Assembly (NCBI GenBank): GCA_002238505.1
Contig: MPMM01000001.1
Span: 558,001-622,000, forward strand
Origin: SAR202 cluster bacterium bin22
GTDB taxonomy: Bacteria; Chloroflexota; Dehalococcoidia; Lucifugimonadales; UBA3495
Length of the DNA: 64,000 nucleotides
Direction: 5' to 3'
In this document: in pieces, positions 42,843-48,873 of the stretch
Layout: every line of letters begins with the position of its first letter
Position numbering within the stretch: position 1 is the stretch's first letter
Made by a program: the position numbers and the translations under genes
Notes under the pieces: model-generated
Databases searched by the model: none
The model's input: the letters and a program-made list of their open reading frames with translations, nothing else
Told to the model about the DNA's origin: nothing

Positions 42843-44018
42843 TCAGGCGGGAACCTCGAGATTCATACCCAGCCTGACGTGCCCGGGCTGGTCCAGCAAC
42901 CCCCTGGCTATTCTGGACCTGTGCTCAAAGCTGGTGCCCAGGCGCATGGTCCAGGCGGTCACCCGCCGATACCACAGGTGCAGATCAAACTCCATCATGA
43001 AGCCCATGCCGCCGTGCAACACCTGGGATGACCGCACTACGGCCTCGCACTTGTCGTTGCAGAAGGACTTGGCCTGGGACACTTCCATAGAGGCTGGCAG
43101 ACCCTGGTCCATCTTCCACAGGGCTTCATAGGTCAGCAACTGGGCGCCGTCCACCCAAAGGATCATATCAGCGCAAATGTGCTGGATGGACTGGAAGCCG
43201 GCAATTGGGCGGCCAAAGGCAACCCGGTTCTTGGCGTAATCAATACCCATTTCGGCGTCTTTTCTGGCCGCCCCGACCATCTGGGCGCAAAGAAGTGCGG
43301 TTCCGCGATCGAGCATCTGCTGGGCTACGGGCCACCCCTGGTGAAGCTCACCCACCAGATTGGCCTTGGGGACTCGAACACTGTTGAAGTTAACCTTGCT
43401 CTGCTTGTCTTTGGCCAGGGTAGTCAGGGGAATCTGGCTGACACCGGTGCTGCCAGCATCAACCAGCAGGAGGGAAATGCCGGCGCCGGCGTCCGATGCG
43501 GGCGCCGTGCGGCAGGCCACCAGGCATTTCTCGGCGGCCACAAAATTGTCCACGAACATCTTGGTTCCAGACAGGATAAAGTTGTCGCCGTCCTCAACCG
43601 CCTGGCACTGGATTGTTTCAGGAAGCAACCGGGGATTCTCTTCGGAGAATGCCCAGGTCAGGACCAGGTCTCCCCGGCCGGCCCGGGGCAAAAGGTCCTG
43701 CTTCTGATCATCGCTGCCGGCAGCGGCAATGGTGAGGGCGGCAACCATGGTCGAGTGGAAGGGCACCGGCGCGATGGCCCGGCCCAGTTCCTCGGTAATC
43801 AGTCCCAGGTAAGTCAGGGGCAAGCCCTGGCCGCCATAACGTTCCGGCAGGGAAATGCCCAGCCAGCCCAGGTCAGCTAGCTGCTTCCATAGTTCAGGCG
43901 GATAGCCCAGGTCGTCCTTTTCCATGTCCCTGGCCAGCCGGGGCGGGCATTCCGCCTCCAGGAATTCCCTGGCCAGGTTCTTGACCATTTGTTCTTCTTC
44001 GTTAGGCAGTACGTCCAT
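42843..44018 (-). CDS. acyl-CoA dehydrogenase
   Basis: A 391-residue acyl-CoA dehydrogenase. The FAD and substrate parts are read in WAFSEENPRLLP, FILSGTKMFVDN, AYAKNRVAFGRPIAGFQ-type block, and VLHGGMGFMMEFDLHLWYRR. The catalytic base normally near the C-terminus is replaced by a hydrophobic residue in this segment, as in some members where the base is elsewhere. Adjacent to a second dehydrogenase (39 bp). The pair may form a heteromeric enzyme, as in some steroid side-chain dehydrogenases; that is inference. Confidence 0.9.
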   Translation of the reverse strand: MDVLPNEEEQMVKNLAREFLEAECPPRLARDMEKDDLGYPPELWKQLADLGWLGISLPERYGGQGLPLTYLGLITEELGRAIAPVPFHSTMVAALTIAAAGSDDQKQDLLPRAGRGDLVLTWAFSEENPRLLPETIQCQAVEDGDNFILSGTKMFVDNFVAAEKCLVACRTAPASDAGAGISLLLVDAGSTGVSQIPLTTLAKDKQSKVNFNSVRVPKANLVGELHQGWPVAQQMLDRGTALLCAQMVGAARKDAEMGIDYAKNRVAFGRPIAGFQSIQHICADMILWVDGAQLLTYEALWKMDQGLPASMEVSQAKSFCNDKCEAVVRSSQVLHGGMGFMMEFDLHLWYRRVTAWTMRLGTSFEHRSRIARGLLDQPGHVRLGMNLEVPA

Positions 44019-44057: not shown

Positions 44058-45260
44058 TTAGGTTCGGGGCATGCCGAGCCCGCGACGGGCTATCTGGTCC
44101 CGCATCACCTGGGTACTGCCGTGGTTAATGCCGGACTGGAAAGAACCCATCAGGTTGTGGGCGAAAACGCCCTCTTCCACGGCATCTTCCGAACCGTTCA
44201 ACAGCTGGGCGTAGGGGCCCAGGATCTGGGCGATGGTCTCGGTGGTTCTGACGCCGTGTTCCGGCGCGAACACCTTTTCGGCGGAACCCTCGTAGGTGAA
44301 GTTGCCGCCCTTTTCCACCAGCGACATGCTGCGCATGGTCATGAGACGGCAAACCTGGGCCTCGGTCCAAAGTTCCGCGATGCGGTCCCGCACCGAGCTG
44401 TCCTCGGCCAGATTCATTCCGCCCAGGTCGTTCTCCTTGACATAATTGACAATGTCCTCGTCCCGCTGGACGGATATCAGGTAACGGCTGGCGCCAACCC
44501 GGTCGAGATTCAGGCCCATGGCTCCCACGTACCAGCCCGTGTTCTCTTCGCCCAGCAGGCAGGAGGCAGGAACGCGAACGTCCTCGAAGAAGACCTCGTT
44601 GGTGCGGGCGTCGCCGTAAGTGGTTCCCGCCGGCGCCTGGGGCTCGTTCTGGATAGTCCAAAGCGCACGAACAGTAATTCTTTCGGTGTCCATCGGGATG
44701 AGGAAAATCGAGATGCCCCGGTGCTTGGGAGCTTCAGGGTCGGTGCGGGCCATCAGGTAAATGTGGCTGGCGTAGTGGGCGGCAGTGGTGAACATCTTCT
44801 GGCCGTTAATAACGTACTCGTCGCCGTCGCGAACGGCGCGGCACTGGAGGCTGGCTAGGTCGGCGCCGGCCTGGGGTTCGGTGAAACCCAGCGCAAAGGA
44901 TATTTCGCCATTTATCAGGCCGGGGAGGTAGTACTTCTTTTGTTCCTCAGTCCCGGCGGCGAGGATTGCTGGAGCCCCGCTGCCGGCTCCGCCCACGGTG
45001 ATGCCGGCCCGGGCAAATTCTTCCTCGACGATGTACTGGTCTATGCGGCTGCCGTCCTGACCGCCGTACTCCCGGGGCCAGCTAATTCCTACCCAGCCCC
45101 GCTCGCCCAGTTTGGCGTACAACTCTCGCACCTTGGGTCCTCGACGCCGGATGCCCAGGTCTTCAATTTCCTGCCGGACCTCGTCGGTGACGTTTTCCTG
45201 GATGAATGTGCGAACATTGTCCCTTAGCGTTTCCTGTTCAGGGGTATATGCAAAATCCAT
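44058..45260 (-). CDS. acyl-CoA dehydrogenase
   Basis: A 400-residue acyl-CoA dehydrogenase. The substrate-binding GFTEPQAGADLASLQC and the FAD-related VINGQKMFTTAAHYA are conserved, as is the C-terminal NLMGSFQSGINHGSTQ. The start is set at 45260 by GAGG upstream, four codons inside the open frame. It precedes the other dehydrogenase gene (39-bp gap), suggesting an alpha/beta pair. Electron acceptor is probably the EtfBA fusion encoded 330 bp upstream on the same strand. Confidence 0.93.
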   Translation of the reverse strand: MDFAYTPEQETLRDNVRTFIQENVTDEVRQEIEDLGIRRRGPKVRELYAKLGERGWVGISWPREYGGQDGSRIDQYIVEEEFARAGITVGGAGSGAPAILAAGTEEQKKYYLPGLINGEISFALGFTEPQAGADLASLQCRAVRDGDEYVINGQKMFTTAAHYASHIYLMARTDPEAPKHRGISIFLIPMDTERITVRALWTIQNEPQAPAGTTYGDARTNEVFFEDVRVPASCLLGEENTGWYVGAMGLNLDRVGASRYLISVQRDEDIVNYVKENDLGGMNLAEDSSVRDRIAELWTEAQVCRLMTMRSMSLVEKGGNFTYEGSAEKVFAPEHGVRTTETIAQILGPYAQLLNGSEDAVEEGVFAHNLMGSFQSGINHGSTQVMRDQIARRGLGMPRT

Positions 45261-45590
45261 CTCTAACCTCATCGGACCGCGGCTTTGAAGGCGCGGTCGC
45301 CCTGGAAGCTTGGTTCATGTTGGAGGGCCGATTCAGACCCAACAACCGAGGCCATTATAGTACGCCTGTATGGGAGTGTCATCCGAATGCGGCGGCGTAA
45401 CCAGGGCAATCGCATTCGGAATTGTCCGCTAGTTTCTCTGCTTAAATGAAAGCTGAAGCGAGGCCACACTAATTTCGAGTGTCCAGCAACCTCAGTAACG
45501 ACAAATGCGATGGCCCGGGTTGCGCAACCCCGGCCGGAGGCTGCATCCAGCAGCGGACAGTAATAACCTTCTATTGGGGAGATGCCTGGA
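45261..45590. other. 330-bp spacer with two inverted repeats
   Basis: No supported gene. A perfect nine-base inverted repeat CCGAATGCG (45383-45391) and CGCATTCGG (45411-45419) and a GGGTTGCGCAACCC palindrome near 45518 lie between the end of etfBA and the dehydrogenase start. No T-run follows, so they may be protein-binding sites or weak hairpins. Confidence 0.45.
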
Positions 45591-47432
45591 CTACAGGGAA
45601 TCTTCCAAGACAGGCTTGATGGCTTCGACCAGGGCCGGGAGGTACTCCTCCCAGTCGCCAACGATGCCTACGTCGGCCGCCTTGAAAATGGGATGACGGC
45701 GGTTGCTGTTCAGGGCGATGATGACACCGGCCTTTTGAATGCCCACAGTGTGGTCGAATACCCCCCGGATGCCCACGGCCAGGTAAACCCGGGGGGCGAT
45801 GGTGCGGCCGCTGATACCCACCTGGACCTGGTGCGGAAGCCAGCCGGCGTGGACTACGTTCCGCGTGGTGGCCACCGTAGCGCCTATTTCGGATGCCAGG
45901 GACTGGACTCTGGGCAGGTTTTCCGGCCCGCCGACTCCCATGCCGGCGCCCAGGACAACTTCCGCCTGGGCCAGGGCGATGCCGCCAGGGTCATCCTCAA
46001 AGTGGGTCTCAAGAACAGTAATGTCAGCCCCCTCGAAGGGCGTGGTTGCCAGTTCCTCAACTGGGGCGCCTGCTCCAGTCTGCGGTTCGATGGGGGACAG
46101 AAGGCCGGGCCGCAACGTCACCAGATTTGGCAAGGTCTTGGACAGGATGGGGGCAATGACGTTTCCGCCGAGGGCCGGCTTCAACTGGACCAGCCTTCCA
46201 TTCTCGTCAATCTCCAGGTCTATGGCGTCCCCGGTAAGGCCCAGCCCCAGGCGGGCGGCGATGCGGGATGCCAGGTCCCGACCGTCGGCGGTGGCGGCGA
46301 ACAGGACGGCGTAAGGCCGCTCGGAGTCAAGGACGCTGGCCAGGGCATTGGCAACGCCACGGCCGCAAACCGGGCCCAGGTTCGAATTGTCCAGGGTAAG
46401 GAGTCGGTCGGCTCCGCAGGCAACCAGGGTTTCGGCGGCGTCTGCTCCGCCATCGCCAATAAGGACCGCAACAACCTGGCTGCGCGTCGTTTCGGTTAGC
46501 TGCCGCGCCTTCCCCAGCAGTTCCAGGGTTACCCTGCGAAGTCCCGTTTGCGCGGTTTCAGCGACCACCCAGATGGCCCGGCCCTTTTCATCCGGATAAC
46601 GGGTGGTGTCGGGCGCAAGGGATTGACTGTCGCTCTGGGCTTCGGAGGAGGCCAGTCCTTCGAGGAGCAGCTTGACGACCTGCTGGGCGGCATCCGCGGG
46701 CGTCTGTTCTTCAATCATTATGCCCTGGCGGGTTGGTTCCACCAGGCGAATGTCTTCCACCCAGGTAGGCGAACCCTCCAGGCCGAACTGGGACAGGTCA
46801 TCGGTCAACTGGCCGCAGGTCAATTCTTCCACCGGCTTTTCCTGGGCCTCGGCCATTTGCTGGCGGTTGGCAAAGGTTTCTTCAGCCACGCCCTCCGTGA
46901 CGCATACCACGGCCGGCAGCGGGCATTCTATGACCTGGTAGCCCTCGTCGGTGATCCGTTCCGCTACGACTGTGTTGGTGTCCGAGCGATAATCCAGCTT
47001 CCTGACCTGGCTGATGTGAGGCAGGCCCAGAAGCTCGGCCAGTTCGGGCCCCACCTGTCCGGTCTCCGCGTCGGCGCTGTTGCGCCCGCAGACGATCAGG
47101 TCGGGTTGTTCCCGCTGCAGCGCCATGCCCAGGGCCCGGGCGGTTGCCAGGGTGTCAGAACCGGCGAGGGCCCGGTCAGTCAACAGAATGCTGCGGTCTG
47201 CGCCCAGGGCCATGCAGGTTACCAGCCCGTCCCTGGCCTGGGGTGGACCCATGGAGACGGCGACCACCTCATCGTCCGGCCCTGACTTCAGCTCCACTGC
47301 CCGTACCAGACCCAATACGTCGAAGGGGTTAACTTCGGAGGGCACACCATCCCTGACGATGGTCTTTTTCTCGTAATCGAAAGTAATTCGAGAGACGACG
47401 GGGACGTATTTGACACAGACGGCCGTCTTCAT
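45591..47432 (-). CDS. electron transfer flavoprotein beta-alpha fusion
   Basis: A 613-residue single chain joining EtfB (residues 1-262) and EtfA (about 284-613) by a short linker. The beta half has NPFDVLGLVRAVELK and CGRNSADAETGQVGPELAE, the latter resembling beta subunits of bifurcating ETFs. In the alpha half the FAD region GISGRTIAPRVYLAVGIRG lacks the usual GISGAIQH form (it reads GIRGVFDH), and the NKDPDAPIF segment reads NSNRRHPIF. ETFs carry electrons from acyl-CoA dehydrogenases to the quinone pool. The start has GGAG seven bases upstream. pncB precedes it by 55 bp. Confidence 0.9.
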   Translation of the reverse strand: MKTAVCVKYVPVVSRITFDYEKKTIVRDGVPSEVNPFDVLGLVRAVELKSGPDDEVVAVSMGPPQARDGLVTCMALGADRSILLTDRALAGSDTLATARALGMALQREQPDLIVCGRNSADAETGQVGPELAELLGLPHISQVRKLDYRSDTNTVVAERITDEGYQVIECPLPAVVCVTEGVAEETFANRQQMAEAQEKPVEELTCGQLTDDLSQFGLEGSPTWVEDIRLVEPTRQGIMIEEQTPADAAQQVVKLLLEGLASSEAQSDSQSLAPDTTRYPDEKGRAIWVVAETAQTGLRRVTLELLGKARQLTETTRSQVVAVLIGDGGADAAETLVACGADRLLTLDNSNLGPVCGRGVANALASVLDSERPYAVLFAATADGRDLASRIAARLGLGLTGDAIDLEIDENGRLVQLKPALGGNVIAPILSKTLPNLVTLRPGLLSPIEPQTGAGAPVEELATTPFEGADITVLETHFEDDPGGIALAQAEVVLGAGMGVGGPENLPRVQSLASEIGATVATTRNVVHAGWLPHQVQVGISGRTIAPRVYLAVGIRGVFDHTVGIQKAGVIIALNSNRRHPIFKAADVGIVGDWEEYLPALVEAIKPVLEDSL

Positions 47433-47487: not shown

Positions 47488-48873
47488 TTAGTGGTCAGCG
47501 ATTCCCTGCTGCTCTATCAGGCTGCCCTGTACCTGGCTGGTTAGCCGCTGCAGCGCGGGGCTCAAGGTTACCGGATAACGGGGCGGATTCACAATTTGCT
47601 TGAAGTGCTCGTCCAGGCGGTCAAAATCGGCAGTGAACCGGTCGCGCATTTCTGACAGGGCGGGTTCTGGTCTGTTCTTTTCGCCAGCTTCCATTACCGT
47701 TTCCAGGAGAGGTTCCCCCGCCGGAAGTTGTTCATCGAGCAAGGTAACTACATCCCTTTCGAAGCAGCCACTGCCATCCTTTAGCCGGTAAATCTGCTTG
47801 GCGCCGGGGGGTGAGATCTTGTCCGGGCTGAGTTTCATCACCGGCCTGCCGTCGTAACAGGCCAGCTTGTAGGACATGTCGGTGTAGGGGGCGTCGGCTG
47901 AGGTTCCAACCCTGGTGCCTACGCCAAAGATGTCTATGGGCGCTCCCGACTGGACCAGGCGGTGAATCTCGTACTCGTCCAGCCCGCCGCTGGCAACTAT
48001 TTGCACATAGGGCAGACCGGCGTCGTCAAGTATCCGGCGTACCTGGCGGCTCAATTCACCGTAGTCGCCTGAATCCAGCCTGACTGCTACCAGGCGATGG
48101 CCCAGGTCCTCCATTTCCCTGCCTACCTGGGCGGCGTTGTGGGCTCCCTCGATAGTGTCGTACGTGTCCAGCAACAGGATGGTGCGGTGGGGGAAGGCGC
48201 TGGCGTAGGCGCGGAAGGCTTCCAACTCGGTGGGGAAGGAAGTGATCATGGAATGGGCCATAGTGCCGGCTGGCGGTATGCCGTAGCGCCGGGCCGCCAG
48301 GACATTGCTGGTTGACTGGAAACCGGCGATATAGCCCGATCGGGCCATGGTCAGGGCGCCGTCCACACCAGGCGCGCGGCGGGCGCCGAAGTCTGACAGG
48401 ACTCGTCCCCGGGCGGACCAGGCGCAACGGGCGGCCTTGGTAGTCTGCAGGCTCTGCAAATTCAGGCGATTGATTATCAGGGTCTCCACCAGTTGGCCCT
48501 CAATTATGGGAGCGGTGACCTCCAGGATGGGATCGTTGGTAAAAAAGACGCGCCCCTCCGGCAGGGCCCGCACACTGCCGGTGAACCGCAAGTCTCCCAG
48601 ATAGGCCAGGAAGTCCTCGGTAAACATGCCCGTCTCTTTAAGATACTGCCGGGTACCGTCTCCAAAGCTGACTCCCTGGAGGAAATCCAGGACGTCCTCC
48701 AGCCCGGCGCAAACCATGTAACCCCGGTTGGGAGGATAGCTGCGCATAAAGAGGTCGAAGGTGGCCTCGGCCGTCATGCCCTGGGCAAAGTAGGTCTGGG
48801 CCATGGTCAGCTCGTACAGGTCGGTGAACAGGCCCAGGTCAGCGCGGGTTGTGTGGTATGCCCTTTGATTCAT
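47488..48873 (-). CDS. pncB: nicotinate phosphoribosyltransferase
   Basis: A 461-residue NAPRTase that converts nicotinate and PRPP to nicotinate mononucleotide in the NAD salvage path. Signature elements: LFTDLYELTMAQTYF at the N-terminus, TMAHSMITSFPTE with the phosphate-accepting histidine, LLLDTYDTIEGA and VRLDSGDYGEL for PRPP binding, and VASGGLDEYEIHRL. It is the first gene of the minus-strand set with etfBA. Co-transcription with a redox protein would match NAD supply; that is inference. Confidence 0.95.
   Translation of the reverse strand: MNQRAYHTTRADLGLFTDLYELTMAQTYFAQGMTAEATFDLFMRSYPPNRGYMVCAGLEDVLDFLQGVSFGDGTRQYLKETGMFTEDFLAYLGDLRFTGSVRALPEGRVFFTNDPILEVTAPIIEGQLVETLIINRLNLQSLQTTKAARCAWSARGRVLSDFGARRAPGVDGALTMARSGYIAGFQSTSNVLAARRYGIPPAGTMAHSMITSFPTELEAFRAYASAFPHRTILLLDTYDTIEGAHNAAQVGREMEDLGHRLVAVRLDSGDYGELSRQVRRILDDAGLPYVQIVASGGLDEYEIHRLVQSGAPIDIFGVGTRVGTSADAPYTDMSYKLACYDGRPVMKLSPDKISPPGAKQIYRLKDGSGCFERDVVTLLDEQLPAGEPLLETVMEAGEKNRPEPALSEMRDRFTADFDRLDEHFKQIVNPPRYPVTLSPALQRLTSQVQGSLIEQQGIADH

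Follow-up and report, generated by a model that had tools for sequence, protein, structure and literature searches.

A conserved fused EtfB-EtfA protein with a predicted bifurcating-type site in SAR202-type Chloroflexota

The window, the whole 64,000-nucleotide stretch of SAR202 cluster bacterium bin22 DNA that was analysed, encodes EtfB and EtfA as one fused protein, and the SAR202-type Chloroflexota family to which the genome belongs shares this fusion as a fixed character. The protein is a member of the ETF superfamily, with an ETF domain in both halves and an alpha FAD-binding domain. The reading that we favour, and consider moderately probable, is a single-chain, two-FAD ETF of bifurcating-type architecture, probably NAD(H)-capable, that would work for the dehydrogenases encoded downstream and beside a quinone-linked split ETF. 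The literature searched yielded no description of a fused ETF in SAR202.

The fused gene (positions 45591 to 47432, minus strand; the motifs and neighbouring genes located below lie on the same strand) is a single uninterrupted ORF of 613 codons without an internal stop, encoding 613 residues, which begins with ATG and is preceded by the purine-rich AAGGAGAAACTGA. Pfam places two PF01012 matches and one PF00766 match on the chain, all over the cut-off and in the order B then A, and the orthologue loci and the family search support the assignment. The EtfB half (residues 1 to 255; 46668 to 47432; Pfam ETF) has 5ol2_B, 4kpu_B, and 7qh2_B as its best solved matches, and the EtfA half (residues 286 to 613 plus stop; 45591 to 46577; Pfam ETF and ETF_alpha) has 6fah_A, 5ol2_A, and 7qh2_A, the closest solved relatives of both halves being bifurcating ETFs. 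Alignment and model place a linker of variable sequence between them at residues 261 to 285 (46578 to 46652), close to the 263 to 283 given in the earlier note, whose description of a B-A fusion on one ORF is borne out. The linker is 24 to 28 residues long in 36 of the 38 chains compared, and 33 and 45 in the remaining two.

The structure model of the fused chain, built from 28 homologues, has a mean pLDDT of 87 and a pTM of 0.88, with pLDDT values below 50 only at residues 268 to 272, inside the linker. It matches solved ETFs with Z values of 22 to 27, superposing with EtfB chains over about residues 1 to 225 and with EtfA chains over residues 285 to 605. The linker would join the C-terminal arm of the beta half to the N-terminus of the alpha half and appears long enough for movement of the shuttle domain.

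The bifurcating site of ETFs is defined by the RXGV, DGDTAQVGP, RxFxG, and SPT motifs together with an EtfA Arg at the N5 of the b-FAD (PMC10734219, PMC9232219). Furthermore, FAD-binding ETFs are told apart from AMP-binding ones by a glycine in EtfB, where the latter have a bulkier residue (PMC12630350); we take this position to be the second in DGDT. In the beta half, the motif RDGV (residues 27 to 30; 47343 to 47354) corresponds to RXGV (PMC10734219), with the Arg invariant in 37/37 family chains. RALAG (residues 87 to 91; 47160 to 47174) is the counterpart of the NAD-site RxFxG (PMC9232219) with Leu for Phe, and GSPT (residues 220 to 223; 46764 to 46775) contains the SPT motif; RxGV, RxLxG, and SPT are each found in 37/37. 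The b-FAD motif DGDTAQVGP aligns to DAETGQVGP (residues 121 to 129; 47046 to 47072), which is D[A/G/S]ETGQVGP in all 37 family chains. Its GQVGP block (residues 125 to 129), from which a bifurcating-type beta half had already been proposed, is thus accompanied by the other b-FAD and NAD motifs throughout the family; TmEtf likewise reads T-G-QVGP.

Residue 122 at the discriminating site is small in every fused chain (in the 37 family chains, Ala in 26, Gly in 8, and Ser in 3), unlike the bulky residue of AMP-type ETFs. The beta half therefore carries the marks of a Group 2 bifurcating EtfB, a small-residue b-FAD motif, RxLxG, RxGV, and SPT, while departing from bifurcating ETFs by Gly to Ala or Ser, Asp to Glu, and Phe to Leu in RxFxG. 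From these motifs we infer a FAD in the beta half: instead of AMP, the site would probably hold a second FAD, next to which NAD(H) could bind. Among the 11 chains of the wider fused clade, 7 have lost the NAD-site Arg and 5 have Leu at the alpha position of human R249, so that NAD binding does not extend to that clade as a whole.

A further departure lies in the alpha half and was missed by the earlier note. The motif KPALGG (residues 418 to 423; 46164 to 46181) aligns to RPxFGG, placing a Lys at the Arg that contacts the N5 of the b-FAD, and this Arg-to-Lys change is a stronger one than that in the alpha FAD motif discussed below. All 39 SAR202-type chains and all 11 wider fused chains have the Lys, whereas the 7 reference bifurcating and Fix ETFs all have Arg, so that the fused family lacks the EtfA Arg of Group 2 bifurcating ETFs. 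Replacing this Arg by Ala, Gln, or Met abolishes bifurcation (PMC10734219, PMC9232219); no Lys variant was among the published variants that we found.

This residue bears on a stronger form of the favoured reading, overlapping with it, in which the protein is a true bifurcating or confurcating enzyme working with a dehydrogenase, ferredoxin, and NAD(H) as Bcd-EtfAB does, with Lys replacing the N5 Arg. Every other motif of the bifurcating site is kept, other bifurcating enzymes have Lys or Arg at N5 (PMC9232219, PMC10734219), and the gene is steadily linked to one of NAD synthesis. Set against this are the loss of bifurcation in the published N5 Arg variants, the absence of FixCX, and the fact that the N5 Lys is not unique to the fused chains, being shared by a few uncharacterised split ETFs, among them the L. 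sakei plasmid pair. We regard this alternative as possible but rather unlikely, and the specific version in which a single-chain bifurcating ETF with Lys for Arg would couple acyl-CoA oxidation to both NAD(H) and ferredoxin beside a quinone-linked ETF as somewhat less likely still.

The comparison with Group 2 bifurcating EtfAB (CarDE, C. difficile Bcd-Etf, A. woodii Ldh-Etf, T. maritima EtfABCX, and A. fermentans Etf) shows the same fold in both halves at about 30 to 38% identity, with RXGV, DxxT[A/G]QVGP, SPT, and the NAD-site R and G in common. The fused ETF differs from them in being one chain, in the Lys for the b-FAD N5 Arg, in the Leu of RxFxG, in D[A/G/S]E for DGD, in Arg for alpha S281 and Asn or Asp for alpha Q285, and in having no FixCX. 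In the trees, the fused clade falls within a larger clade with the solved bifurcating ETFs, with weak support (UFBoot 79 and 55), and outside the clade of the solved proteins themselves.

The two changed a-FAD loops, GIRGVFDH (residues 554 to 561; 45750 to 45773) and NSNRRHP (residues 575 to 581; 45690 to 45710), had been described as a departure of this protein that might change its flavin potential. The family alignment rejects the view of an oddity of the window's protein, as the motif is the family consensus: GIRGAFNH for the first loop, where GIRG is nearly invariant and followed by F[N/D]H (family form GIRG[A/V]F[N/D]H), and NxN[R/H]R[A/H]x for the second. Human alpha R249, T266, and H286 are contacts of the flavin ring (PMC5827430). 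At the positions aligned to them, all 39 family members have R, S, and H, respectively, residue roles being transferred to the fused ETF by alignment. The altered positions are, in human numbering, S281 to Arg, Q285 to Asn or Asp, and the loop 301 to 306, which we take to lie nearer to the FAD phosphates and ribityl chain than to the ring. Since the motif is typical of the subgroup, an outcome that the earlier note had named as refuting, and the ring contacts are kept, the motif gives no ground for a changed potential; such a change is possible, but the altered positions do not mainly point there.

The gene neighbourhood is operon-like and suggests electron donors. A nicotinate phosphoribosyltransferase gene (47488 to 48873; NCBIfam above the cut-off) lies directly upstream with a 55-bp gap. 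All 37 loci whose flank was long enough have this gene upstream and on the same strand, at a median gap of 55 bp, the extremes being two 4-bp overlaps and gaps of 706 and 2060 bp at two loci. Downstream, Pfam identifies two acyl-CoA dehydrogenases. The first (44058 to 45272), a candidate donor, has Tcur3483 and 4x28_A as its best solved matches, and the second (42843 to 44018), a candidate partner subunit or donor, has 5ol2_C, 6wy8_A (Tcur3481), and 4x28_D. Both thus resemble subunits of heteromeric acyl-CoA dehydrogenases of the steroid type (6wy8, Tcur3483/Tcur3481; 4x28), which makes them natural donors. By eye, the C-terminal YEGT motif lacks its usual catalytic Glu in both.

The tandem pair follows the fused gene in most SAR202-type loci, while at about eleven of them no acyl-CoA dehydrogenase was found within the flank examined. 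The proposal that the neighbouring dehydrogenases are donors is strengthened by the conserved pair, with the identity of the donor drawn from gene position. The neighbours of the wider fused clade are variable and show no shared partner, a few having enoyl-CoA hydratase and CoA-transferase-like ORFs. Taken together, two FADs, NAD(H) binding, dehydrogenase donors, and the linker role are what we infer for the favoured reading, in which electrons from the downstream-encoded acyl-CoA dehydrogenases would pass to the shuttle domain and its a-FAD.

The same genome encodes a second, split etfBA on contig C39, which the earlier note also missed. Its EtfB lacks SPT and carries a Trp at the site that discriminates AMP from FAD, features shared by most of its 13-member clade, and the discriminating site is W, Y, or D in 13/13 EMO-type split ETFs, so that the C39 protein is classed by its motifs as AMP type. 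The search for a membrane quinone oxidoreductase, suggested in the earlier note, found one EMO/EtfD-like protein on contig C40 with about five predicted TM segments, two 4Fe-4S motifs, and CCG domains. Elsewhere in the class, the gene neighbours of such proteins are split ETFs in many genomes (e.g., G003, G004, G040, G061, and G119) and not fused ETFs, so that EMO is not supported as a gene-linked partner of the fused form. ETF-QO or FixCX was rejected as partner, as the own genome has no ETF-QO/FixX domain (PF05187) and hence lacks the ferredoxin partner of a FixABCX system; the domain is found in 1/50 family genomes and in none of the other 49. A 998-aa protein with FAD-oxidase, 4Fe-4S, and CCG parts (full length at L061:6560-9556), whose C-terminal part is encoded at positions 5 to 1555 of the window, is possibly a further ETF partner of Ldh type.

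The EMO/EtfD-like protein opens the alternative of a conventional ETF, in which dehydrogenase electrons would reach menaquinone via EMO/EtfD, the beta site would be a relic or bind AMP, and the fusion would only fix the stoichiometry. Such a protein is present in this genome and in 47/50 family genomes and might act for both ETFs; neither ETF-QO nor FixX is encoded in this genome as an alternative partner, and Mtb EtfD serves EtfBA and acyl-CoA dehydrogenases (PMC8593149). The fused ETF shares the fold and the a-FAD ring contacts with the canonical AMP-type M. tuberculosis EtfBA-EtfD system, and the SAR202 genome resembles that system in encoding an EMO/EtfD-like protein. However, the fused form differs in its small beta-site residue and SPT in place of a bulky residue, its FAD and NAD motifs are invariant in the family, and the EMO genes adjoin the split ETF clade. 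In two fused-ETF genomes, G405 and G406 of genus g271, no EMO was detected; the CCG proteins that they encode have lengths of about 300 and 980 residues, and, one of the genomes being 77% complete, the retention of the fused ETF without EMO is suggestive. We therefore consider a purely conventional role unlikely, and favour the single-chain, bifurcating-type ETF as a specialised second ETF that would act beside the canonical AMP-type, quinone-linked split ETF (C39, with EMO on C40).

The fusion itself is well conserved. The scan of GTDB genomes gave 41 loci, all but L042 being single frames; 38 come from Chloroflexota records, which in many cases bear the name SAR202 or Dehalococcoidia. The 37 SAR202-type loci have the same single ORF, full or contig-truncated, and in the window's own family 49/50 genomes match, nearly all with one fused ORF, some cut at contig ends; in this family search G383 has only a split ETF and G398 has none. 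Two relatives look split: in G406 a stretch of Ns falls on the junction, its congener G405 being intact, and in L042/G380 the frame changes within the linker and the alpha half is not preceded by a visible start codon. With one frame in 37 independent loci and nearly all of the 50 family genomes, a missed stop or mis-assembly of two genes, which the earlier note had named as a concern, is almost certainly not the explanation, even with these two apparent splits.

Single-ORF relatives with about 33 to 46% identity occur in 7 other sampled genomes of the class and 7 more of the phylum sample, and the GTDB scan found fused relatives in Acidimicrobiia and other Actinomycetes MAGs; nearly all sequences compared come from MAGs. 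The cultured strain Rhodococcus jostii RHA1 carries a fused EtfBA with 42% identity at 788509 to 790320 of plasmid pRHL1 (L092:7851-9866), which has no annotation in the record used. Fused single-chain ETFs with both domains exist in some archaea, whereas the fused clade described here comprises Chloroflexota and Actinomycetota.

Trees of the alpha half, the beta half, and their concatenation, the first two as proposed in the earlier note, place all sampled fused members in one clade (UFBoot 87, 85, and 95, respectively), well away from the split EMO-type clade. As both halves recover the same fused clade, a chimera of unrelated halves is rejected and a single fusion event is likely, being the simplest reading of the trees. 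Class genomes with the fused ETF have two PF00766 matches each, which suggests that the fused form is an additional paralogue. Other fusions were also observed: L069 (G039:C7:281569-283455) and L070 (G040:C97:1784-3670) are a separate B-A fusion adjoining an ETF-QO gene, which branches with LctC and not with the window's fused clade, and two other Dehalococcoidia loci, L086 (G034:C8) and L089 (G108:C13), are single ORFs in the reverse order, EtfA then EtfB.

The natural Arg-to-Lys change offers a ready test of whether bifurcation requires Arg as such or just its charge, and part of this is already open to experiment with the fused homologue of the cultured R. jostii RHA1. SAR202-type Chloroflexota are abundant, mostly uncultured, and largely marine and sponge-associated. 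In these bacteria, a conserved fused bifurcating-type ETF beside an AMP-type ETF suggests two separate routes for the electrons of acyl-CoA oxidation, and the fused ETF may handle energy differently from the ordinary ETF of the same cells.
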